Assembly (NCBI GenBank): GCA_039944855.1
Contig: JBDUXZ010000020.1
Coordinates: 186,001 to 250,000 of the forward strand
Origin: Rhodothermales bacterium
Lineage (GTDB): Bacteria; Bacteroidota; Rhodothermia; Rhodothermales; JANQRZ01
Direction of reading: 5' to 3'
Length of the DNA: 64,000 nucleotides
Of this stretch, positions 3,111 through 48,608 are shown in pieces; position 1 is the first letter of the stretch; every line of letters starts with the position of its first letter. The notes beneath the pieces were generated by a model that was not told the origin of the DNA, did no database searches, and saw nothing but the letters and a program-made list of their open reading frames with translations. Both the position numbers and the translations under genes were made by a program.

Positions 3111-4526
3111 ATGCCGCGCTCCGACAGCGAAACGATAGCCGCCATCGCCACGGCGCGGGGCCGCGCTGCGCTCGCGATTGTGCGTGTCTCCGGCCCTGAA
3201 GCGGTGCCCCTCGCCGACCGGCTCTTCGACGCGAAGGACCTCCGGGAGCAAGACAGCCACACGGCACACGTCGGGTTCTTCACGACGCCCGCAGGGGATC
3301 GGATCGACCAGGTCGTCGTGACGCTGTTCCTCGCTCCCCGCTCGGCGACGGGAGAGGACGTGGTGGAAGTGACTTGCCACGGTGGCGACGTGGCCCCGCA
3401 GCTCGTCCTCCAGTCGCTGCTCGATGCAGGTGCACGTCTCGCTCGCCCTGGCGAGTTCACCGAGCGCGCGTTCCTCAACGGAAAGCTCGATCTCGCGCAG
3501 GCCGAAGCTGTTGCCGACCTGATCCACGCGCAATCGTCGCTCGCGCACCGTGTCTCGCTCAACCACTTGCAGGGGCACTACTCCGCCGCCGTCGCCGACG
3601 TCCGACAGGAGCTGCTACAAACATGCGCGCTCGTCGAACTCGAACTCGACTTCGCTGAGGAAGACGTCGAGTTCGCCGACAAGGCGCGCTTGGTGGGCTT
3701 GCTCGACCGGACGGAAACGCTACTCACGCAGTTGCTCGGCTCATACCGATACGGAGCGCTCATCCGAGACGGCGTGCGTGTCGTGATCGGCGGCCGTCCG
3801 AACGCGGGTAAGTCCACGCTCCTCAACGTCCTCGTTGGACGCGACCGGGCGATTGTCAGCCCCGAGCCCGGCACCACGCGTGACGAGATCGAAGCGGAAG
3901 CGGAGTTGGGCGGTCTGACGTTCCGGTTCGTAGACACGGCCGGCCTCCGCGATGCCGCCGACCTCATCGAGGCGGAAGGGGTGCGCCGTGCCTATTCCGC
4001 CATCGACCACAGTGACGCCCTGCTCTACGTCGTCGACTCCACTCGAGGCCTCGACGATGAAGAGCGGGCCTGGCTCGAACGTTTCACCGTGAAACACGAT
4101 GAGGCGAACACCCGCTCGTCTCGGCCGAGCCTGCCCGTATTGCTGGTCAATAACAAAGAGGATCTCGCCGGTACGGTCACTGCTCTATCTAGCCCGCTCC
4201 CGACGCTCTCGCTTTCGGCCGTGAACGCGGCGAGCGACCCCGCTCTGTTGCACCCTCTCCGTTCGTGGCTGGTCAACACCGTCACAGCCGACCTCACAAC
4301 TCCCGAAGCCTCTCCGGTCGTCGTCAACCAGCGCCATCGCCAGCACCTGGCGCGCGCGCTTGATGCCGTGGAGAATGCGAAGTCGGTTTTGAACTCGGGG
4401 TTCGGTGGCGACACACTCGCGCTCGACCTCCGCGCTGCCTTGGTCGAGTTGGGATCCATCACCGGGGAGATCACGAACGAGGACGTGCTGGGCACCATTT
4501 TCTCTCAGTTCTGTATTGGGAAGTGA
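3111..4526 (+). CDS. mnmE: tRNA uridine-5-carboxymethylaminomethyl modification GTPase MnmE
   Basis: This 471-residue GTPase works with MnmG to install cmnm5 at wobble U34 of certain tRNAs. The N-terminal domain (DTIAAIATA-like start, GRAALAIVRVSG) binds the formyl-folate donor. The G domain has the P-loop GRPNAGKST at about residues 226-234, DTAG near 276 and the specificity motif NKED near 347. The protein ends in FCIGK, the diagnostic C-terminal motif with the essential cysteine. It precedes mnmG, its functional partner. A parS-like near-palindrome lies within the coding sequence. Confidence 0.96.
   Translation: MPRSDSETIAAIATARGRAALAIVRVSGPEAVPLADRLFDAKDLREQDSHTAHVGFFTTPAGDRIDQVVVTLFLAPRSATGEDVVEVTCHGGDVAPQLVLQSLLDAGARLARPGEFTERAFLNGKLDLAQAEAVADLIHAQSSLAHRVSLNHLQGHYSAAVADVRQELLQTCALVELELDFAEEDVEFADKARLVGLLDRTETLLTQLLGSYRYGALIRDGVRVVIGGRPNAGKSTLLNVLVGRDRAIVSPEPGTTRDEIEAEAELGGLTFRFVDTAGLRDAADLIEAEGVRRAYSAIDHSDALLYVVDSTRGLDDEERAWLERFTVKHDEANTRSSRPSLPVLLVNNKEDLAGTVTALSSPLPTLSLSAVNAASDPALLHPLRSWLVNTVTADLTTPEASPVVVNQRHRQHLARALDAVENAKSVLNSGFGGDTLALDLRAALVELGSITGEITNEDVLGTIFSQFCIGK
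4080..4098. other. parS-like near-palindrome with an extra central base (copy 1)
   Basis: CGTTTCACCGTGAAACACG is two parS half-sites (GTTTCAC and GTGAAAC) separated by one additional base. It lies inside mnmE, where it encodes RFTVKH, so coding constraint alone could explain it. The same 19-mer, differing only at the centre base, recurs just after mnmE. Confidence 0.4.
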
Positions 4527-4531
4527 GTTCT

Positions 4532-4550
4532 CGTTTCACGGTGAAACACG
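4532..4550. other. parS-like near-palindrome with an extra central base (copy 2)
   Basis: CGTTTCACGGTGAAACACG matches copy 1 in 18 of 19 bases and sits in the mnmE-mnmG gap, six bases after the mnmE stop, where no coding constraint applies. The inserted centre base would change half-site phasing relative to true parS, so it may be bound by ParB weakly or by a related protein. Confidence 0.45.
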
Positions 4551-4613
4551 CCGTAGTCCTCTTTTTTAAAGTTAGGAAATTCATCTCCAATACGTCTTTA
4601 ACGCTGCAACGTT

Positions 4614-6548
4614 ATGGCTGAAATTGATTCGTATGACGTGATCGTGGTGGGCGGTGGACATGCGGGAGCGGAAGCTGCGCACGCTGCCGGCCGAATGGGG
4701 GCCCGGACGTTGCTCATTACGATGAGCATCGAAGCGCTCGGGCGCATGTCGTGTAATCCCGCCATCGGAGGGATCGGGAAAGGGCAGATCGTCCGTGAGA
4801 TCGATGCGCTCGGCGGACTTATGGGACGCGTCACCGATCGTACGGGCATCCAGTTCCGGATGCTGAACCGGAGCAAAGGACCCGCGGTTTGGAGCCCGCG
4901 CGCTCAGAGTGACCGCACGGCCTACTCTCTCGCCGTCCGCGAGGAGTTGGAGTCTACCCCTGCGTTGCGCTTTCGTCAGGATATGGTGACCGATGTCCTC
5001 GTCGACGACGGACGCGTGACGGGCGTCAGAACGCAGACGGGGCAGACCTTCCATGCTCGCTCAGTCATTCTCACAAGCGGCACGTTTCTCAATGGGACTA
5101 TCCACATCGGTGAACGACAGCATGGGGGGGGGCGTGCAGGGGAGCGCGCCGCTACGGGTATCAGTGCGAGCCTCGAACGACTCGGTTTCGAAGTCGGCCG
5201 TTTAAAAACGGGGACACCACCACGAGTCGACGGCCGCACGATCGACTACACCGGGCTCAGTGAGCAAAAAGGGGACGATGAACTCGTCCCCTTTTCCTAC
5301 ATGACGGATCGCCTCCCGGCAGAACAGCGGTCTTGCTGGCTGACCTACACGAACCCGAAGGTCCATGAACTCCTTCGCACGGGGTTCGACCAGAGTCCCA
5401 TGTTCGCCGGTCGCATTCAGGGACAGGGCCCCCGATACTGCCCGTCGATCGAAGACAAAATTGACCGCTTCGCTGACAAGGACCAGCACCAACTCTTCCT
5501 AGAGCCTGAGGGGTTGAACACGTACGAGATTTACGTCAACGGTTTTTCTACTTCATTGCCGGAAGAGGTCCAGCTAGCTGCGCTTCGCCAGGTCGCAGGG
5601 ATGGAGCGCGTCCATATGCTTCGGCCGGGATACGCGATCGAGTACGACTATTTCCCGCCGCATCAACTCCGCTATAGCCTCGAAACGAAGCGAGTCGAAG
5701 GGTTGTTCTTTGCAGGACAGATCAACGGAACCACGGGGTACGAGGAAGCGGCAGCGCAGGGGCTGCTCGCCGGCATCAACGCCGTTCAGCGACTGCGAGA
5801 GGCCGAGCCGATTGTGTTGCAGCGCTCTCAAGCCTACATCGGCGTGCTCGTCGATGACCTGGTCGCGAAAGGCACCGATGAACCATACCGGATGTTTACT
5901 TCGCGCGCTGAACACCGCCTGCTTCTCCGCCAGGACAATGCTGATCAACGGTTGACTCCGCTCGGCTACGAGCTTGGTCTTGCTTCGGCGTCACGGAGGG
6001 ATCGACTCCAGCGCAAGCAGCAGGCTCTCGACGCTACCCTCGAAAACCTTCAAGCCACTACCGTGGCACCGCACGATGTGAACGGCTACCTGGAACACGT
6101 AGGCACGACTCCCATCGCCGAGCCCGTGCGTCTCGCGCGGCTCGTAACCCGGCCCCAGGTGCAACTTGATGCGTTGCTCCGCGCTACGGGCCACGAGACA
6201 CTCGCCCCCCCCTTCGAAAGCGCCGACTCCCTCCTCCATAGCGCCGAGACGATTTTGAAGTATGCAGGATACCTTGACCGAGAATTAGAGATGGTAGAGA
6301 AGATGCACCGAATGGAATCGTGGCGCCTTCCCTCGGATGCCATCTACGATGCCATTGACAGCATCACCCTCGAAGCACGAGAGAAGCTGAAGCGCATCCG
6401 CCCCGACACCCTCGGTCAGGCCTCACGCATCAGCGGCGTCAGTCCTGCTGACATCTCTGCGCTGATGATCTTACTCAAGAGTGGCCGACTACCCTCTCCC
6501 CCCAATTCCGTTTCACGTGAAACGCCCCGCGCGACTCCTTCGAAATGA
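4614..6548 (+). CDS. mnmG: tRNA uridine-5-carboxymethylaminomethyl modification enzyme MnmG
   Basis: A 644-residue FAD- and NADH-dependent partner of MnmE. The N-terminal dinucleotide-binding motif [11 protein letters not shown] is at residues 11-21. The conserved [12 protein letters not shown] (near 46), [20 protein letters not shown] and EYDYFPP motifs all match the GidA family. The C-terminal helical region with YAGYLDRE and ALMILLKSG mediates MnmE binding. Its stop codon overlaps the rsmG start by four bases (ATGA), indicating translational coupling. A consensus parS site lies in its last codons. Confidence 0.97.
6509..6524. promoter_or_regulatory. parS centromere-like site (ParB target)
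   Basis: CGTTTCACGTGAAACG is a perfect 16-bp palindrome carrying the parS core GTTTCACGTGAAAC, in which only the outermost pair differs from the classical TGTTTCACGTGAAACA. It lies at the end of mnmG. parA and parB are not in the window, but the whole segment is origin-proximal, as expected for parS. Confidence 0.75.
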
Positions 6549-7180
6549 GTTCATCACCTCCATTCATTACGGCCGACCAACGGCGACAACTCGAGCATCT
6601 CTCTTCTCTGGCGCAATCGCTGAACTCGAAAATCAATCTCTACTCAGCCGCGAGTGCTCGAGCCTTTTGGGGTCGGCACATCGAGCACAGCCTCACACTT
6701 GCCACTAAGTCATTCCCCCCGCAGGCCCGGGTTGTTGACTGGGGGACAGGAGGCGGAATGCCCGGATTGCCGCTAGCCATCCTTTTCCCTCAGACCAAAT
6801 TTGTGCTCGTCGACGCTGTGCGCAAGAAGATCCAAGCTGTCGAGACCATGGCACGGCGCCTAAGCCTCCAAAATGTCGAGACGTGGCACGGACGAGCAGA
6901 AGCGTGGGAGGGAAGCGCGACCCATAGTGTTTCACGTGCAACAGCGCCGCTGATAACGTTGTGGGAGTGGCACGAACGTGTTGCGACCGAGCACGCTGTC
7001 GGAAGCCTACACGTGTGGCGACCCGGATTGATCTGTTTAAAAGGTGGAGACTTACATCAGGAGATCGCCGACCTGACGAAGGTCCACGAAGGAGTAGAGA
7101 TCGTTACGACGCCACTGGCGGACACAAGGGCTCGGGACGACTTCGAGGAGAAGGTCATCGTAGAGGTTTATAGACACTAG
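6545..7180 (+). CDS. rsmG: 16S rRNA (guanine-527-N7)-methyltransferase RsmG
   Basis: A 211-residue SAM-dependent enzyme that methylates N7 of G527 in 16S rRNA. The SAM-binding glycine motif [15 protein letters not shown] is at about residues 64-78, followed by [14 protein letters not shown] and the RA(T)APL region typical of GidB. It is the last gene of the rpmH-to-rsmG run and overlaps mnmG by four bases. The familiar next genes parA and parB are not here: an outer-membrane protein gene faces it from the opposite strand 32 bases away. Confidence 0.94.
6928..6943. promoter_or_regulatory. parS centromere-like site inside rsmG
   Basis: TGTTTCACGTGCAACA matches the bacterial parS consensus TGTTNCACGTGAAACA exactly when read on the other strand, where N is G. 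It lies inside rsmG, about 400 bases from the preceding site; clustered parS sites help ParB nucleate spreading. Confidence 0.75.
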
Positions 7181-7212
7181 CGAGGAGCAAACCGTAAAGG
7201 ATGAGTACCCTG

Positions 7213-7866
7213 TCAACGTAGATGAACCCCTACAAACAGGACAAACGACTGATTGTAGATGCTTCTACTTTCAGATCCGCTTACCTCTCGATTTAGCACG
7301 TTACCAAGCCCCCGATTGTATCGGACTCCAACGAGACCTTCCGTTCCAGCGAGGGAGCCTGTAATATCACTCCCTAATGTGAACCCGTACTCCGGCGATC
7401 CAAACTGATCAGATTCCTGAGACCCTTGAAGCCCATCGATCACGATGCGCTCTGACAACTCGAAGCTGATCGTCGGACCCAAATAGAAGGACAGAGACGC
7501 TTGCGATGTGAATGAGAGGGTGTACTTGATGAGAACGGGCACATCGAGGTAAGTCAGTTCCAAGCGTGCGGAAACGAGATCTCCATCGCCAGGCTCGTCG
7601 GCAATGGCGACAGCGGCACGCTCCGTGGTGAAGCCCTTCTGCGCATAAAGGAGCTCGGGCTGCACCGAAAGGCTGTGACGAAGCGGGATCGTACCGAACA
7701 GGCCAGCGGCGAAACCTACGCGAGACCCGAAATCGTCTTCAGCACGAATGTCGCCACCGATGTTAGCTACGCTCAGGCCGATACGAAACCCTACCACATC
7801 CTGAGCCTCACTGACCGAGGTGAATGCTAAGAACGCGAAGCAGAACGTCAGGAAGCGGCAAATCAT
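7213..7866 (-). CDS. outer-membrane beta-barrel protein, PorT-like
   Basis: A 217-residue protein with a cleavable signal peptide (MICRFLTFCFAFLAFTSVSEAQ) followed by alternating short strands with glycine and aromatic residues: FRIGLSVANIGGD, VGFAAGLFGTIPLRHSLSVQPELLYAQKGF, LDVPVLIKYTL, FYLGPTISFEL and VGVRYNRGLGNV. This is the pattern of the small eight-stranded porin-family barrels common in Bacteroidota. The function is unknown; such barrels can be structural, adhesive or gliding/secretion related. It is convergent with rsmG and divergent from the ATP-grasp gene. Confidence 0.75.
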   Translation of the reverse strand: MICRFLTFCFAFLAFTSVSEAQDVVGFRIGLSVANIGGDIRAEDDFGSRVGFAAGLFGTIPLRHSLSVQPELLYAQKGFTTERAAVAIADEPGDGDLVSARLELTYLDVPVLIKYTLSFTSQASLSFYLGPTISFELSERIVIDGLQGSQESDQFGSPEYGFTLGSDITGSLAGTEGLVGVRYNRGLGNVLNREVSGSESRSIYNQSFVLFVGVHLR

Positions 7867-8208
7867 AGGAGAACGGGAGGCGTGCGCTTTGCGTCATCGC
7901 CAGGGAGGAAGAGGCGAGTCGCAGACGTGGCTATGTGAGAAAACAGAGCGTGAATGGTGGATGCGCGCTTGGATAGCACAAGGGTACTGGAGAAGGCCGA
8001 AACGAGTAAGTCAAAAAAACGCACCTGACTGCGTCGCCGACGGCACACACGGCTAGCAAAATGACCGGGGGTAGCGTCTCTAAGGGGAGAAACGCTGTAG
8101 GGGATTGACCGACACCGGGAGAGGGGAGCAGAGGGCGAGGCCCAAGATGCGGAGGGACTATGTTGTTTTCATAGTGGTTTCTGCCTTTCCCACCTTGCCT
8201 TGCCGACC
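7867..8208. other. intergenic region between divergent genes
   Basis: These 342 bases separate divergently transcribed genes, so both promoters should lie here. I see an imperfect hairpin at about 8073-8095 (AGCGT and ACGCT arms) and a relatively AT-rich patch at 8160-8180, but no convincing gene or RNA. Confidence 0.4.
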
Positions 8209-9801
8209 ATGCTACGGCCTCACATCTCCCTTGAGTGCCTCAACGTCGGGGTGCAAAAACTCATTACTGAGTGGCCGCGACCCGGCTCACCGTCGGAACG
8301 GCAACGATTCGCGCAGTTGCAGGAGGCGTTCCCGAAACAGTTCCAAGAGGTCTTCCCCGATCCACACAGGGCACGGACCGTCGTCGTCATCCCAAGCCTC
8401 TCGTTGCCGCCGGAGGAGTTGAAAAAGATATCTGGGGTGAATCATTACGAAGAGCGAATGCTCTTCACGCTCATGCTGCTCCGCATGCCGCGGACGCGGC
8501 TGATCTTCATCACGAGCGAGCCCATCGCCCCCGGCATCATCGACTATTACCTCCAGCTTCTCCCCGGCGTGCCGAGCGTGCATGCGCAAGAACGACTCAC
8601 CTTCTGGGCATGCCACGACGCATCGCCGATTCCGCTCGCGCAAAAAGTGCTCGACCGGCCCCGCCTGATTCAGCGGATCCGTCACGGTATCGTAGACCCC
8701 AGCGCGGCACACCTCACCTGCTTCAACGCAACGGAGAGGGAGCGAACGCTCGCTGTCCGGCTCGGCATCCCGCTATACGCCTGCGACCCCGACCTCCATC
8801 ACCTCGGAACGAAGAGTGGGAGCCGCGAGGTTTTTCGGGAAGCGGGGATCCCCTTCCCCGACGGGTTCGAAAACCTCCGAGACCTAGCCGATGTGACAGA
8901 CGCACTGACGGAATTGAAACGCCGGCACCCTGCACTCCGACGCGCGGTGGTAAAGCTGGACGAAGGGTTCAGCGGCGAGGGCAATGCCGTCTTCACGTAC
9001 GGCGACGATGCGCCAGAGGGGGCCGCGCTCCACGCGTGGGTACAGGATCGGCTCCCAGAACGGCTTCGTTTCGAGGCCGCCAGCGAAACGATAGAACGAT
9101 ACGGGAGCGCCTTCGAGGAGATGGGCGGCGTCGTGGAGCTATTCGTAGAGGGTGCCGTGAAAGCCTCCCCTTCGGCGCAGTGCCGCGTGGACCCGCTGCA
9201 CAAACCCGTCGTGATCTCGACGCACGACCAGGTTCTCGGCGGGCCGACGGGACAGGTTTTCCTCGGCTGCACCTTCCCCGCTGCCGAACCCTACAGGATG
9301 GAGGTTCAACACTATGGGTGCCGCGTTGCAGAAATTCTAGCGCGCCGAGGGGCCTTAGGACGCTTCAGTGTGGACTTTGTCTCTGTCGAGAGCCAAGAGG
9401 GATGGGACCATTACGCTATCGAGATCAATCTCCGCAAGGGAGGGACAACGCATCCCTACCTCATGTTGGAGTTTCTCACGGACGGGCACTACGATGCGGA
9501 CACCGGGTGCTTCCTCACCCTCGACGATCAACCCCGTTACTACTACGCCTCCGACAACCTCGTGAGTGAGCGCTACCGTGGGTTGATCCCGCGCGACCTC
9601 GTCGAGATCGCGGTCTACCATGGCCTCCACTTCCACGGGGCGATGCAACAGGGCGTCGTGTTCCACCTCATCGGCGCGCTCTCGGAGTTCGGGAAGCTCG
9701 GCGTGCTGTGCATCGGCGACAGCCCGGAGACGGCCCGGCGGTACTACGACGACACGGTCCGCGTGCTCGACCTGGAGACGAGCGGGAACGCCCCGCCGTA
9801 A
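8209..9801 (+). CDS. ATP-grasp protein related to the peptide ligase Pgm1
   Basis: A 530-residue protein of the ATP-grasp superfamily, enzymes that activate a carboxylate as acyl-phosphate and couple it to an amine. The N-terminal third contains LIFITSEPIAPGIIDYYLQLL and a nucleotide-binding-like segment. The ATP-grasp core has VVKLDEGFSGEGNAVF, RFSVDFV and the metal-binding segment AIEINLRKGGTTHP. The C-terminal part (GVVFHLIGALSEFGKLGV, IGDSPE) matches the C-terminal domain of Pgm1-type ligases. The ATG is preferred over an in-frame TTG nine bases upstream. It stands alone with no peptide precursor next to it, so the substrate is unknown. Confidence 0.75.
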   Translation: MLRPHISLECLNVGVQKLITEWPRPGSPSERQRFAQLQEAFPKQFQEVFPDPHRARTVVVIPSLSLPPEELKKISGVNHYEERMLFTLMLLRMPRTRLIFITSEPIAPGIIDYYLQLLPGVPSVHAQERLTFWACHDASPIPLAQKVLDRPRLIQRIRHGIVDPSAAHLTCFNATERERTLAVRLGIPLYACDPDLHHLGTKSGSREVFREAGIPFPDGFENLRDLADVTDALTELKRRHPALRRAVVKLDEGFSGEGNAVFTYGDDAPEGAALHAWVQDRLPERLRFEAASETIERYGSAFEEMGGVVELFVEGAVKASPSAQCRVDPLHKPVVISTHDQVLGGPTGQVFLGCTFPAAEPYRMEVQHYGCRVAEILARRGALGRFSVDFVSVESQEGWDHYAIEINLRKGGTTHPYLMLEFLTDGHYDADTGCFLTLDDQPRYYYASDNLVSERYRGLIPRDLVEIAVYHGLHFHGAMQQGVVFHLIGALSEFGKLGVLCIGDSPETARRYYDDTVRVLDLETSGNAPP

Positions 9802-43153: not shown

Positions 43154-43636
43154 TTACACCGACGGGGCGTGGGAAGACCCGGACGGCGGCGTGATGTCAA
43201 CGAGGCCTCGGCCCGTCTTGCGCAGCCGCCCCTCGTCCTTGAGCGTCGTGAGCACCGCATCGAGGATGCCGTTGAGGAACGTCCCGCTTTGCTCGGTGCT
43301 GAACTGCTTCGCCACTTCGATGGCTTCGTTGATCGACACCTTCGGCGGGATATCCTCGAAGTAGAGCAGTTCCGTAATCGCCTGCCGCAGCGTCAACCGG
43401 TCGACCGTCGCGATGCGGTTGAGCCCCCAGTTCTTGGCATGCGCCTCGATGAGTTCGTCGGTCTCCTCCTCGTGGTCGAGCGTGGCGAGGAACAGCCGCT
43501 CGGCGAAGCGGAGCGCGGGCCCTTCGAAGTGCGGCTGGAGCAGGTGCTTGACGATGTGCCCGACGCCGTCCCCGCTCAATTCGCGGGCGTACAACGCCTG
43601 CATGACTCGGGCTCGGACTTCGCGGCGGCTGCTCAT
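43154..43636 (-). CDS. nusB: transcription antitermination protein NusB
   Basis: A 160-residue all-helical protein that binds boxA RNA with NusE/S10 in rRNA antitermination. It starts with RREVRARVMQALYARELSG, the typical NusB N-terminus, and ends with the conserved IPPKVSINEAIEVAKQFSTEQSGTFLNGILDAVL segment. It is divergent from comEC. Confidence 0.94.
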   Translation of the reverse strand: MSSRREVRARVMQALYARELSGDGVGHIVKHLLQPHFEGPALRFAERLFLATLDHEEETDELIEAHAKNWGLNRIATVDRLTLRQAITELLYFEDIPPKVSINEAIEVAKQFSTEQSGTFLNGILDAVLTTLKDEGRLRKTGRGLVDITPPSGSSHAPSV

Positions 43637-43802: not shown

Positions 43803-46289
43803 ATGCCGCCGCCCCCTCGCCCCGACCGACCGATCCGCTGGCGTGCTCGGCCGGCGCTCCTCGTGGCGGGCTGCTTCGCAGCGGGGATCGTAGCGGCCCG
43901 CTTCGCCCCGGCCGTCGGGTTTTGGGAATGGGTCGGGGTCGCCGGAGCCGCGGCGCTCGTGACCGTGGTCGCCACGGTGGGGAGCCGGGCGCGACTCGTG
44001 TCGCTCGCTGGGCTGATCGCGACGGTCGGTCTCGGCGTGGCGATTACGGCGCTGGGCGGGGCGCATCTCGCCGCGTGGCAGCAGCTTCCGAGCGATCACG
44101 TCGCCCACCTCGCCGCCCGTGTTGCCGACCCCGTCGTGCTCACCGGCACTGTCGCCGACCACCCCGTCGTGACCGAGCGCGGCGTCCGCTTCACGCTCGC
44201 CGCCGACTCCGCCGCGCCGACGGACGTGCTCTATCCCGTCCGAGGCCGCGTGCAGGTCTCCCTCTGGCACCCACGCCGCGACGACGAGCCTCGGATCGAC
44301 TACCCGCTCGTCCGCGCCGGCTACCGCGTCGAGGTTGCCGGCGCGCTCCGCCCCCTCGCGCCCCGCCGTAATCCGGCCGACTTCGACTACGGCGCATATC
44401 TCGCCCGGCGCGGCACACACGCCACGCTCGCCGGCTACGACTCGACGACGCTCACCATACTTGCCGCCGATCCCGGCCCGCTCGACCGCACCGCGAACGC
44501 CGTCCGCGCCCACGTCGAAGTCACCCTCGCCCGCCACATCCGGGACGACGAGCCGCGCGCCGTCCTCTCCGCCCTCCTCCTCGCCGACCGCAGCGAGATC
44601 GACCGCGCCACCCGCGATGCGTTCGCGCTGACTGGGCTGATGCATCTGCTCGCGATCTCCGGCCTCCACGTCCTCCTCGTCGGGATGGCGCTCTACGCAT
44701 TCCTCAAGCCGACGCTCCACCGGCTCCGCTGGTCGTGGCGGCGGGTCGAGATCGTGCGGACCGCGCTGACGCTCGGGTTGCTCGGGCTCTACGTCCTCAC
44801 GACGGGCGCGCCGCCGTCGGCCGTGCGAGCCCTCGTGATGGCCGCGCTGCTCATCGTCGGGGCTGCGACGGAGCGGGCACCGAACACGCTCAACGCGCTC
44901 GGCGTGGCTGCCCTCGTGCTCCTGTTCGTGCGGCCGACGTTCCTGTTCGACGTCGGCTTCCAACTCTCGTTCGCCGCCGTCGGGGCGATCGTGACGCTGG
45001 TGCCGGTGCTCGAAAGCTGGCTACCGGCCGTGTGGACGGGAGGGAGAATCCGGCGATGGACCGTAAACATGACGCTCGTCTCGCTCGCCGCCACGCTCGG
45101 GACGATGCCGGTCCTCCTCTTCCACTTCGGCCGCGTCCCCCTCGCCGGACTCCTGCTCAACCTCGCCGCAATCCCGGCGACGACGCTCACGCTCGGCGGC
45201 GGGCTCTTCACCGTCCTCGCCTCCCCCCTCCCGCCCCTCGCCGATGTCTTCGGCGCGGCGGCTGAGGGCGGCGCTCTCGTGCTCCTCTGGCTCAGCCGGA
45301 CCGGTGCCGAGTGGCTGGCGTGGACGAGCGTCGGCGGCTTCGTCCGCAACGCGTGGTTCATCAGCGCCCTCGCGGCGGGGCTCGCCGCGCTCGCCCTCTG
45401 GCCGCGGCCCCGTCCCCGCTGGCGCCTCGTCGCCGTTGCCGGCGCGCTTACGGTCATCGGTGTGTGGCAACCCGTGTGGAGCGGCGCGACGCAGCCGCGA
45501 CTGGATGTGTTGTTCTTCGACGTCGGGCAGGGCGACGCCGCGCTCCTCACGCTTCCCAACGGACGCCGCGTGCTCGTCGATGCCGGGCTCCGCGACCCGT
45601 ACACGGACCAGGGCGAGCGGACGATCCTCCCCCACCTCGTCCGCGAAAACATCGACCGACTCGACGCCGTGATCGTGACGCATCCGCACGCGGACCACCT
45701 CGGCGGGCTTCCGGCGATCCTGCGCGCGATCCCTACTGCACAGGTTGTCCACAACGGGCATAACTATTCCTCGGAGCTGTATGCCGAGACCGTCGCCCTC
45801 GTGGCCGAACGCGGCGTCCGCAGCCGCGCCGTCACGTCCGGCGATACGCTCGCGCTCGATCCGACAGTACGCCTCCAGATCCTTGGCCCCTCCGCCTCGC
45901 CCGGACCCGGCGACGAAGCGAACGAAGGCTCGGTCGTGCTCCGCGTGAGCTACGGTGCCACGTCGTTCCTCCTCACCGGCGACGCCGAAGCGGATGCCGA
46001 AGCCGACCTCCTCGCCCGCTACGGCGACCTGCTGCAAAGCGACGTGGTGAAAGTCGGCCACCACGGGAGCCGGACGAGCAGCACGGCCCCGTTCGTGACG
46101 GCCGTGGTCGGCGGGCAGACGCCGCTCGCCGTCGTGTCGGTCGCCGAGCGCAACGTCTACGGGCTCCCCAACGCCGAGGTGCTGGACCGCTGGGAGCACG
46201 CCGGGGCGACGGTGCTGCAAACGTCGAAAGAAGGTGCCGTCTGGCTCCGCTCCGATGGGAAGACCGTCAAGCGCTTGGACTGGCGCTGA
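43803..46289 (+). CDS. comEC: DNA internalization competence protein ComEC/Rec2
   Basis: An 828-residue membrane protein forming the inner-membrane DNA channel of natural transformation. It has N-terminal helices, a DUF4131-like soluble domain, the Competence domain with HLLAISGLHVLLVGM and several helices, and a C-terminal metallo-beta-lactamase domain. The latter has FFDVGQGDAALLTLPNG and the metal-binding THPHADHLGG (residues about 622-631), LLTGDAEADAE, and VGHHGSRTSS. The domain order and length are those of full ComEC. Other competence genes are not nearby. It indicates that the organism may be naturally transformable. Confidence 0.95.
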   Translation: MPPPPRPDRPIRWRARPALLVAGCFAAGIVAARFAPAVGFWEWVGVAGAAALVTVVATVGSRARLVSLAGLIATVGLGVAITALGGAHLAAWQQLPSDHVAHLAARVADPVVLTGTVADHPVVTERGVRFTLAADSAAPTDVLYPVRGRVQVSLWHPRRDDEPRIDYPLVRAGYRVEVAGALRPLAPRRNPADFDYGAYLARRGTHATLAGYDSTTLTILAADPGPLDRTANAVRAHVEVTLARHIRDDEPRAVLSALLLADRSEIDRATRDAFALTGLMHLLAISGLHVLLVGMALYAFLKPTLHRLRWSWRRVEIVRTALTLGLLGLYVLTTGAPPSAVRALVMAALLIVGAATERAPNTLNALGVAALVLLFVRPTFLFDVGFQLSFAAVGAIVTLVPVLESWLPAVWTGGRIRRWTVNMTLVSLAATLGTMPVLLFHFGRVPLAGLLLNLAAIPATTLTLGGGLFTVLASPLPPLADVFGAAAEGGALVLLWLSRTGAEWLAWTSVGGFVRNAWFISALAAGLAALALWPRPRPRWRLVAVAGALTVIGVWQPVWSGATQPRLDVLFFDVGQGDAALLTLPNGRRVLVDAGLRDPYTDQGERTILPHLVRENIDRLDAVIVTHPHADHLGGLPAILRAIPTAQVVHNGHNYSSELYAETVALVAERGVRSRAVTSGDTLALDPTVRLQILGPSASPGPGDEANEGSVVLRVSYGATSFLLTGDAEADAEADLLARYGDLLQSDVVKVGHHGSRTSSTAPFVTAVVGGQTPLAVVSVAERNVYGLPNAEVLDRWEHAGATVLQTSKEGAVWLRSDGKTVKRLDWR

Positions 46290-46449: not shown

Positions 46450-47310
46450 TCAGTGGTAGAGGAAGAGCGGGATCTCGGCGTTGTCGATCAGCCCGCTCGC
46501 CGTCGAGCCGAAGAGGAATTCTTTCAGGCCGGACTGCGAGTGGGCGCCCGCCACGATGAGGTCGGCGCGGCTGCGGGTGGCGTGGTCGAGCAGCCGACTC
46601 TTCGCCTGCCCGCCGGGCAGGCTCGTCCCCTCGACGGAGGTGAACCCGTGGGCTTGGAGGTAGGACTTCGCGAGCGAGAGCATCAGTTCGGACTCGGCCG
46701 TCGCCTCCTCCCCATCGCCCTCGCGCACGTTGACGACCTCGACGGCGAGGTGCTCCGTGTCGAACGGGCTCAGCTCGGCGAACTTCTGCATCGCGCGCGC
46801 CGCGCTCACGCTCCGGTCGTAGGCGACGAGCACGCGACGGATCGGGCGGTACTCGGACTCGACGACGAGCGTGGCGGCGGCGCCTTTCTCCACGACCTCG
46901 TCCATCGTCCGCGTTCGCTTGTCGCGCTGCGGATAAAAGAAGTGCGACTCGTGCCCGGCAATCAGCAGGTCGTGGTACTTCATGTCCTCGACGATCCGCT
47001 CGAACGGGACGCCCTCCTCGACGTGGTCGGCCCCGTGGGGGATGCCTTCGCGGTCGAGCTCCTCAGCGAAGCGGCGGAGGAGGTGGTGCGCTTGAGCGCG
47101 GGCCTCGTCCGAGAGTGCGTGTTGGAGCTTCTCTGCATAATACATCGCGCCCACGCCAGCGCCGGAAGCCTGGGAGCGGATCCCTTCGCGGTCGACGATG
47201 GCGAGGCCCGTCACCGACGCGCCGGAGCGGTGAGCGATCTCGATCGCGTAGCGGGTTGCGACGGAGGTGTCGGTGTCGAAGTCGAGGGCGACGAGGATGC
47301 GCTTGAGCAT
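46450..47310 (-). CDS. tandem universal stress protein (UspA family)
   Basis: A 286-residue protein made of two Usp domains, each about 140 residues. The first begins MLKRILVALDFDTDTSVATRYAIEIAH; the second begins RPIRRVLVAYDRSVSAARAMQKF and carries the ATP-binding GAHSQSGLKEFLFGSTASGL (G-x2-G-x9-GS). The first domain has a poorer G-x2-G motif (GHESHFFYPQRDKR), so nucleotide binding may be confined to the second. It is the gene immediately left of the candidate origin and reads away from it. TACCTTTA at 47343 may be its promoter element. Confidence 0.9.
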   Translation of the reverse strand: MLKRILVALDFDTDTSVATRYAIEIAHRSGASVTGLAIVDREGIRSQASGAGVGAMYYAEKLQHALSDEARAQAHHLLRRFAEELDREGIPHGADHVEEGVPFERIVEDMKYHDLLIAGHESHFFYPQRDKRTRTMDEVVEKGAAATLVVESEYRPIRRVLVAYDRSVSAARAMQKFAELSPFDTEHLAVEVVNVREGDGEEATAESELMLSLAKSYLQAHGFTSVEGTSLPGGQAKSRLLDHATRSRADLIVAGAHSQSGLKEFLFGSTASGLIDNAEIPLFLYH

Positions 47311-47350: not shown

Positions 47351-47429
47351 CATCGGGGGCATCAGAGACACTATGCCACCGATTGGTATAGGCTGATATA
47401 AGAGGAGCCCCTCGTTCATCCACACTGCC

Positions 47430-47472
47430 TAATTAAATAAAGTATTGAATAAGTAAAAAGGTATAGTAGTAG
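47430..47472. other. AT-rich DNA unwinding element with TAG triplets
   Basis: Forty-three bases of about 80% A+T in an otherwise strongly GC-rich window. They end with three consecutive TAG triplets (47464-47472), followed after AGGC by two head-to-tail DnaA boxes. This matches the layout of DnaA-trios, which let DnaA load on single-stranded DNA. No other tract of this composition occurs in the window. Confidence 0.7.
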
Positions 47473-47834
47473 AGGCTGTGGACATGTGGACAAGCCGGTC
47501 GGAAGAGGCCGTTGTGGATAGACGTGCATAAGCGCCGAGTTATCCGCGGTACTGTCCACAAACGGCCCGCCGGCCGAAGCCGCGACAGTCCCCGTCCGGT
47601 GCGATCTCGCGACGTTGTCCACTTCTCCACGCCTGTCCACAACTAGGGGAATCCCCTACCCACACCCCGTCCACAACCCGGAGCCTGTGGACGACGGTTG
47701 GATAACCCGTGGAGAGATCGTCCTTGACAGCGTGGCGATTTTGACAGGGCGGAGCGGCGTCGGCGTTGTCCCCGACGCGTCCACGGTTGTCCACACCGTT
47801 CTCCACACGGTGGAAAAAGTCCCCGTTTTGCACA
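47430..47834. other. candidate chromosomal replication origin oriC
   Basis: A gene-free block with a dense set of DnaA boxes. Perfect high-GC boxes (TTGTCCACA) are at 47485 (reverse) and 47787. One-mismatch boxes include 47477 (reverse), 47513 (CTATCCACA, reverse), 47552, 47615, 47633, 47686 (reverse), 47799 (TTCTCCACA), and TTTTGCACA at 47826 fits the E. coli pattern. Weaker matches lie at 47540, 47667, 47697 and 47766. An AT-rich tract adjoins the first boxes. Genes to the right run rightward; most just to the left run leftward, as expected at an origin. Confidence 0.88.
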
Positions 47835-47945: not shown

Positions 47946-48608
47946 ATGCGCACCGTGCTCTGCCTGCTCCTCGTCCTCGCGTTCGCTGCCGAGGCGCCCG
48001 CTCAGTCCAGCCGTCACGACGTCACGATCGCCCGCGTGAAGTACGGCGGCGGCGGTGACTGGTACAGCGGCGAGGGGTCGCTCCCCAACCTCCTCGCCTT
48101 CGTGCGGACGAACACGCTGCTCGACGTGGCACCCGAAGAAGACATCGTCGAACTGACGAGCGACAAGCTCTTCCAGTACCCGTACCTCTATCTCAACGGG
48201 CACGGCACGGTCCGCTTCACCGCGCGTGAGGCCGAGCGGCTTCGGCGCTACCTCGTCGGCGGCGGCTTCCTCCACATCAACGACGACTACGGGCTCGATC
48301 AGACGATCCGGCAGGAGATGAAGAAAGTCTTCCCCGAGCAGGAGTTCGTCGCCGTCCCGTTCGAGCATGAGGTCTACCACGCGCACTTCCAGTTCCCCAA
48401 CGGCCTCCCCAAAGTGCACGAGCACGACGGCAAGCCGGCGCAGGGACTCGGGTTGTTCCACGAGGGGCGGCTAGTCGTGTTCTATTCGTACGAGAGCGAC
48501 ATCGGCGACGGGTGGGAGCCGGAGGGCGTGCATAACAACCCACCCGAGAAGCGGCAGGCGGCGCTCCGGATGGGAACGAACCTGCTCGTTTACGCGATGA
48601 CACGCTAG
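47946..48608 (+). CDS. DUF4159 domain-containing exported protein
   Basis: A 220-residue protein with signal peptide [20 protein letters not shown]. The mature part matches DUF4159: [17 protein letters not shown]-like start, [49 protein letters not shown], and a [24 protein letters not shown] end. The domain resembles a glutamine-amidotransferase-like (ThuA-like) fold without proven activity and often accompanies MoxR-ATPase gene clusters, which are not seen here. An ATG 15 bases earlier is also possible. It is the first gene to the right of the candidate origin. Confidence 0.87.

Follow-up and report, generated by a model that had tools for sequence, protein, structure and literature searches.

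Where does replication of the chromosome begin in this Rhodothermales genome? The question is raised by a stretch of 64,000 nucleotides (the window; C20:186001-250000, where C20 is a contig of 491,657 bp) in which a first-pass annotation had read a dense array of DnaA boxes as a candidate oriC. The gene dnaA, which encodes the initiator, is commonly used to locate the origin, and the annotation had noted that it does not adjoin the array. Our analysis agrees, placing dnaA outside the window, on the left and at a distance of 72 kb from the array. Several marks of an oriC are found at the array (233.6 kb on C20), namely DnaA boxes clustered well above chance, an AT-rich DNA unwinding element next to them, and a single copy per chromosome. 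The mark of a DnaA-trio unwinding system, three or more trios no farther than 16 nt from a box, is found as well; adjacency to dnaA, the mark of a dnaA-linked oriC, is not. Sequence comparison indicates that positions 47416 to 47834 of the window are very probably the chromosomal replication origin, oriC.

The array contains ten 9-mers with no more than one mismatch to TTRTCCACA within 392 bp (47416 to 47807). Both perfect TTGTCCACA boxes claimed in the first-pass annotation were recovered, one on each strand, and the weaker boxes that it mentioned correspond to additional two-mismatch sites in the array. Its count of about eight one-mismatch boxes is reached when TTATCCACA is also allowed, which adds the boxes at 47416 and 47513; against TTGTCCACA the number is six. 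This is the densest box cluster on the contig, where other 500-bp stretches hold at most four boxes (the runner-up with four lies upstream of dnaA, followed by stretches with three). A Poisson model predicts about 1e-15 such clusters on a contig of this length, and none of 60 Markov surrogates of the window yielded more than three boxes per 500 bp. The array adjoins the strongest AT-rich tract of the window (28% GC over 60 bp, and 17.5% over 40 bp at 47429). The first-pass annotation had called this tract the only one of its kind; weaker ones occur at 4542 (35%) and 19555 (37%). Separately, the G+C content of positions 4000 to 9000 of the window is 0.55 to 0.61, compared with about 0.68 elsewhere, and this segment is possibly acquired DNA. 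The features of the locus and of its neighborhood are collected in Table 1.

Table 1. Features of the putative replication origin and its flanking genes (positions in the window)
Feature	Position	Strand	Evidence
oriC (predicted), whole DnaA-box array and unwinding element	47416..47834		10 boxes with ≤1 mismatch; R1 match E 2.8e-18, sole one in genome
DnaA box TCATCCACA, left of AT-rich tract	47416..47424	+	TCCACAC invariant in three family genomes
AT-rich DNA unwinding element	47425..47463		Lowest G+C of the window; tract likewise placed in homologous loci
DnaA-trios TAGTAGTAG, 3'-GAT-5' x3 reading away from boxes	47464..47472	+	GTAGTAG invariant in 21 aligned loci, which had been chosen partly by that very pattern
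Spacer AGGC, 4 nt, trios to first box	47473..47476		3-5 nt long in aligned loci
DnaA box ATGTCCACA, trio-proximal	47477..47485	-	Conserved
DnaA box TTGTCCACA, perfect, 12 nt from trios	47485..47493	-	Conserved
DnaA box CTATCCACA	47513..47521	-	TGTGG core invariant in family
Box-like site TTATCCGCG, two mismatches	47540..47548	+	10 bp GTTATCCGCG invariant in all three family genomes
DnaA box CTGTCCACA	47552..47560	+	Box scan, family alignment
DnaA box TTGTCCACT	47615..47623	+	Box scan, family alignment
DnaA box CTGTCCACA	47633..47641	+	Box scan, family alignment
DnaA box TCGTCCACA	47686..47694	-	Box scan, family alignment
DnaA box TTGTCCACA, perfect	47787..47795	+	Box scan, family alignment
DnaA box TTCTCCACA	47799..47807	+	Box scan, family alignment
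usp (universal stress protein), left oriC neighbor in most families of the order	46450..47310	-	Pfam PF00582 E 2e-25; synteny
comEC/rec2-like competence gene, conserved left neighborhood	43803..46289	+	Pfam PF03772; synteny
nusB, conserved left neighborhood	43154..43636	-	Pfam PF01029; synteny
DUF4159 gene, immediate right neighbor in the window's family only; pgi in most others	47946..48608	+	Pfam PF13709

The left end of the array has the layout of a basal unwinding system, which consists of DnaA boxes, a short GC-rich gap, and repeated 3'-GAT-5' trios (PMC8287927). From left to right, a box is followed by the AT-rich tract, the trios, the AGGC spacer, two minus-strand boxes, and the remaining array. 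In published systems, the distance from the trios to the more conserved box is typically 10 to 13 nt, and the upstream one of tandem boxes tends toward the better match (PMC8287927). Here, the trios TAGTAGTAG are separated from the near box by 4 nt, and their distance to the perfect box, 12 nt, falls inside the published peak. The polarity agrees too, since the trios run 3' to 5' on the top strand in the direction leading away from the boxes.

Comparison of the window's genome with two others of its family (G001, the nearest relative, and G002) placed the element between the same two genes in all three. In the three-way alignment, 84% of the columns within boxes are invariant versus 33% of those in the spacers that follow the trios on the right (Fisher p 2e-22). 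The two-mismatch site at 47540 is probably a real site despite its poor match to the DnaA box, since GTTATCCGCG is invariant in the family. Another conserved motif, TTGACA near 47724, together with the location between divergent genes, would suit a promoter-regulatory region of usp and the right-hand gene, with DnaA acting as a transcription factor. However, a promoter needs neither trios nor an AT-rich unwinding element, and the element stays in place while the gene on its right varies by family (DUF4159, pgi, or moeA) and the one on its left is sometimes comEC instead of usp. We therefore regard a purely regulatory role as extremely improbable.

A search of 114 Rhodothermales genomes with the pattern GTAGTAGN{2,6}TGTGGA returned matches in 44, and among the 30 matches inspected some have an AT-rich tract on one side and a box array on the other while others are chance occurrences. 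A sequence-only profile (R1; cutoff E <= 0.01), built from 21 loci that are flanked by such a tract and array, matches 93 of the 114 genomes; matches at the 21 training loci are guaranteed by the way R1 was built, and the remaining loci constitute the test. Nearly all of these genomes have a single match, including that of the window; second matches occur in G008, G025, G111, and G113, and in the last three the second match overlaps the first on the opposite strand. Families f5 and f15 frequently give a weak match or none, and weaker matches are also found elsewhere in the class.

The genes around the R1 matches are conserved as well. In families that contributed no training sequence (f3, f6, f10, f14, and f15), the matches adjoin usp, pgi, moeA, or comEC. 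Across all families, usp, pgi, or both stand beside the element in 19 of the 23 loci examined. Two further loci (f10 and one of f13) retain only comEC and its neighbors, and those of f2 and f4 lack the marker genes beside the element. The common gene order is phosphoesterase, nusB, comEC, usp, element, pgi, and moeA. Pfam matches bear out the universal stress protein and DUF4159 genes that the first-pass annotation had named as flanks, the latter taking the place of pgi in the window's family. In family f12 and in the Rubrivirga metagenome-assembled genome L126, usp and the element are followed by pgi and then DUF4159, and the arrangement in the window's family is therefore most simply explained by loss of pgi from this place. 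DUF4159 was rejected as an origin marker for the order, most families having no boxes at this gene. Comparison among genomes thus shows a conserved, single-copy element with recurring gene neighbors. These results uphold the oriC reading of the first-pass annotation through the DnaA-trio element, the conservation of boxes between genomes, the presence of one copy per genome across the order, and the conserved neighbors; two points of the original case for it, the strand orientation on the left side and the predicted skew minimum, are weaker than stated.

The window's genome has a single dnaA, identified by a profile match at C20:160994-161479 (minus strand). Many genomes of the order encode two full-length dnaA-like genes (G006, G014, G015, G024, G025, G033, G034, and others). 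Where both the element and dnaA were placed on one contig, they are adjacent in none of the genomes, and their distance ranges from 12 to 409 kb: 12.4 kb in G014, G024, and G033; 23 to 32 kb in G015, G025, G034 (these three have two dnaA genes, the closer of which is counted), G037, G004, and G018; 37 to 47 kb in G022, G036, and G006; 70 kb in G012; 72 kb in the window's genome; 111 kb in G013; 150 kb in G001; 230 kb in G009; and about 400 kb in G039 and G032. The idea that the origin moved away from dnaA in the window's family only was rejected, since R1 locates the origin at a distance from dnaA in every genome that was placed.

The region upstream of dnaA has boxes of its own, four in the window's genome, and such clusters recur in most families, nearly always in the same orientation and often as pairs 11 bp apart. 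This AT-rich upstream region with 4 to 6 boxes, its clusters recurring across the order, is what would be expected if the true origin lay beside dnaA and the array served to titrate DnaA or had a regulatory role, as datA and DARS do in Escherichia coli. However, the dnaA-side cluster has fewer boxes than the array, no DnaA-trio run was found upstream of dnaA in the window's genome, and none of the few A-rich runs there in the other genomes examined was placed next to boxes. The full unwinding anatomy sits at the array, and GC skew argues against dnaA in the nearest relative (see below), which leaves an origin at dnaA highly improbable. A bipartite or dual system, in which the array unwinds and initiates and the dnaA-linked cluster is a further cis requirement or an occasional start site, would accommodate the conservation of both clusters and the 11-bp spacing that the box pairs upstream of dnaA keep in several families. 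Yet the element and dnaA are anywhere between 12 and 409 kb apart, and dnaA changes side, so there is no fixed cis arrangement, and autoregulation of dnaA, which the upstream cluster probably serves, explains its boxes. We consider such a system very unlikely. Also very unlikely is a reading in which the two DnaA-box centers conserved in the order are the origin and a trio-less dnaA cluster with a cis-acting role, either as the remnant of a second origin or as a sensor of dosage, and initiation is tuned by how far apart the two lie.

Two other box arrangements were observed on C20 outside the window. At C20:281916-282052, the 8-mer CGTCCACA, which resembles a DnaA box with two mismatches, is repeated head to tail about 17 times; this repeat was not seen in the examined part of G001 and is possibly a slippage repeat or a DnaA sink. 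Two perfect TTGTCCACA boxes stand inverted about 97 bp apart at C20:336685-336795 (GGCTTGTCCACAC ... GTGTGGACAAGCC).

GC skew coarsely supports the region of the array as origin and not its exact site. The first-pass annotation had expected a cumulative skew minimum at 47.4 to 47.9 kb; instead, the minimum within the window lies near 54 kb, and the contig as a whole has a shallow basin at about 235 to 300 kb (from 49 kb of the window to past its end), with a change point that is hardly resolved. The array is within or at the edge of this flat basin, whose lowest point is 25 to 65 kb to the right, and dnaA (162 kb) lies where the curve is still descending. In G001, skew changes at 208 kb (bootstrap 174 to 246 kb); the positions of the array and dnaA are 168 kb and 318 kb. 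The array is 40 kb to the left of the change point, just outside the bootstrap interval, and 5.9 log-likelihood units below the best position, whereas dnaA is 28.7 units below it and 23 units worse than the array. Skew clearly rejects dnaA as the origin in G001. The curve is nearly flat from the array to the minimum, perhaps due to near-origin inversions, which are seen in comparing the window's genome with G001. In two single-contig relatives, the sign of the skew changes in the vicinity of the array. Sampled segments of G012 change skew sign between 2.39 and 2.54 Mb, with the array at 2.394 Mb; those of G009 change sign somewhere in 0.97 to 1.4 Mb, with the array at 1.155 Mb, an interval that does not separate the array from dnaA. 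Skew is uninformative in G032.

Gene orientation gave a mixed picture. The flip in gene direction that had been reported at the array holds on the right, where nine of nine conserved open reading frames (ORFs) in the window point rightward; to the left, both directions occur. A strand-bias scan of conserved ORFs had its optimum at 162 kb near dnaA in the window's genome (39 versus 9 at the array) and at about 120 kb in G001 (11 each for the array and dnaA), and it was dropped as an origin locator because of this inconsistency. Leading-strand status was preserved in 88 of 117 pairs when the array was taken as origin on both sides versus 59 with dnaA on both, with the best-scoring positions elsewhere.

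With the array as oriC, we infer that DnaA binding, melting, and initiation take place there. ATP-DnaA would bind the array and extend from the boxes at 47477 to 47493 along the top strand onto the trios, the AT-rich element would melt, and two helicases would be loaded for bidirectional replication. The initiator would be supplied by the dnaA gene at 72 kb, which has a DnaA-box cluster of its own.

The array offers a precise and testable origin for the whole order, one that would be misplaced by a search next to dnaA, and the R1 profile combined with the marker genes usp, pgi, and comEC provides a means of finding it. The series of genomes in which 12 to 409 kb separate dnaA and the origin would be useful for asking whether this distance affects the control of initiation. 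No published origin for Rhodothermus, Salinibacter, or their relatives was found in the literature searched, which is not proof of absence.

Origins apart from dnaA are already known in other bacteria, as is this type of unwinding element. The oriC of E. coli, between mioC and gidA, is a dnaA-distal origin. Like such origins, the Rhodothermales element is far from dnaA and has its own array and AT-rich element; it differs from E. coli oriC in its neighbors and in a distance to dnaA that varies from 12 to 409 kb within one order. A published account also states that oriC need not lie close to dnaA (PMC10225481). In Melioribacter roseus, a member of the wider Bacteroidota/Chlorobi group, the origin was predicted in the dnaA-dnaN intergenic region (PMC3534657); both are predicted DnaA-box arrays associated with a skew transition, here coarsely, but the array described here is 72 kb from dnaA. 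With the basal unwinding oriC of the Bacillus subtilis type (PMC8287927, PMC6669920), it shares tandem boxes, a short GC spacer, DnaA-trios, and an AT-rich tract in equal polarity. It departs from that type in not being beside dnaA, in the one-base overlap of two boxes (8-bp spacing), and in its neighbors, which are usp/comEC/nusB on one side and pgi/moeA or DUF4159 on the other.
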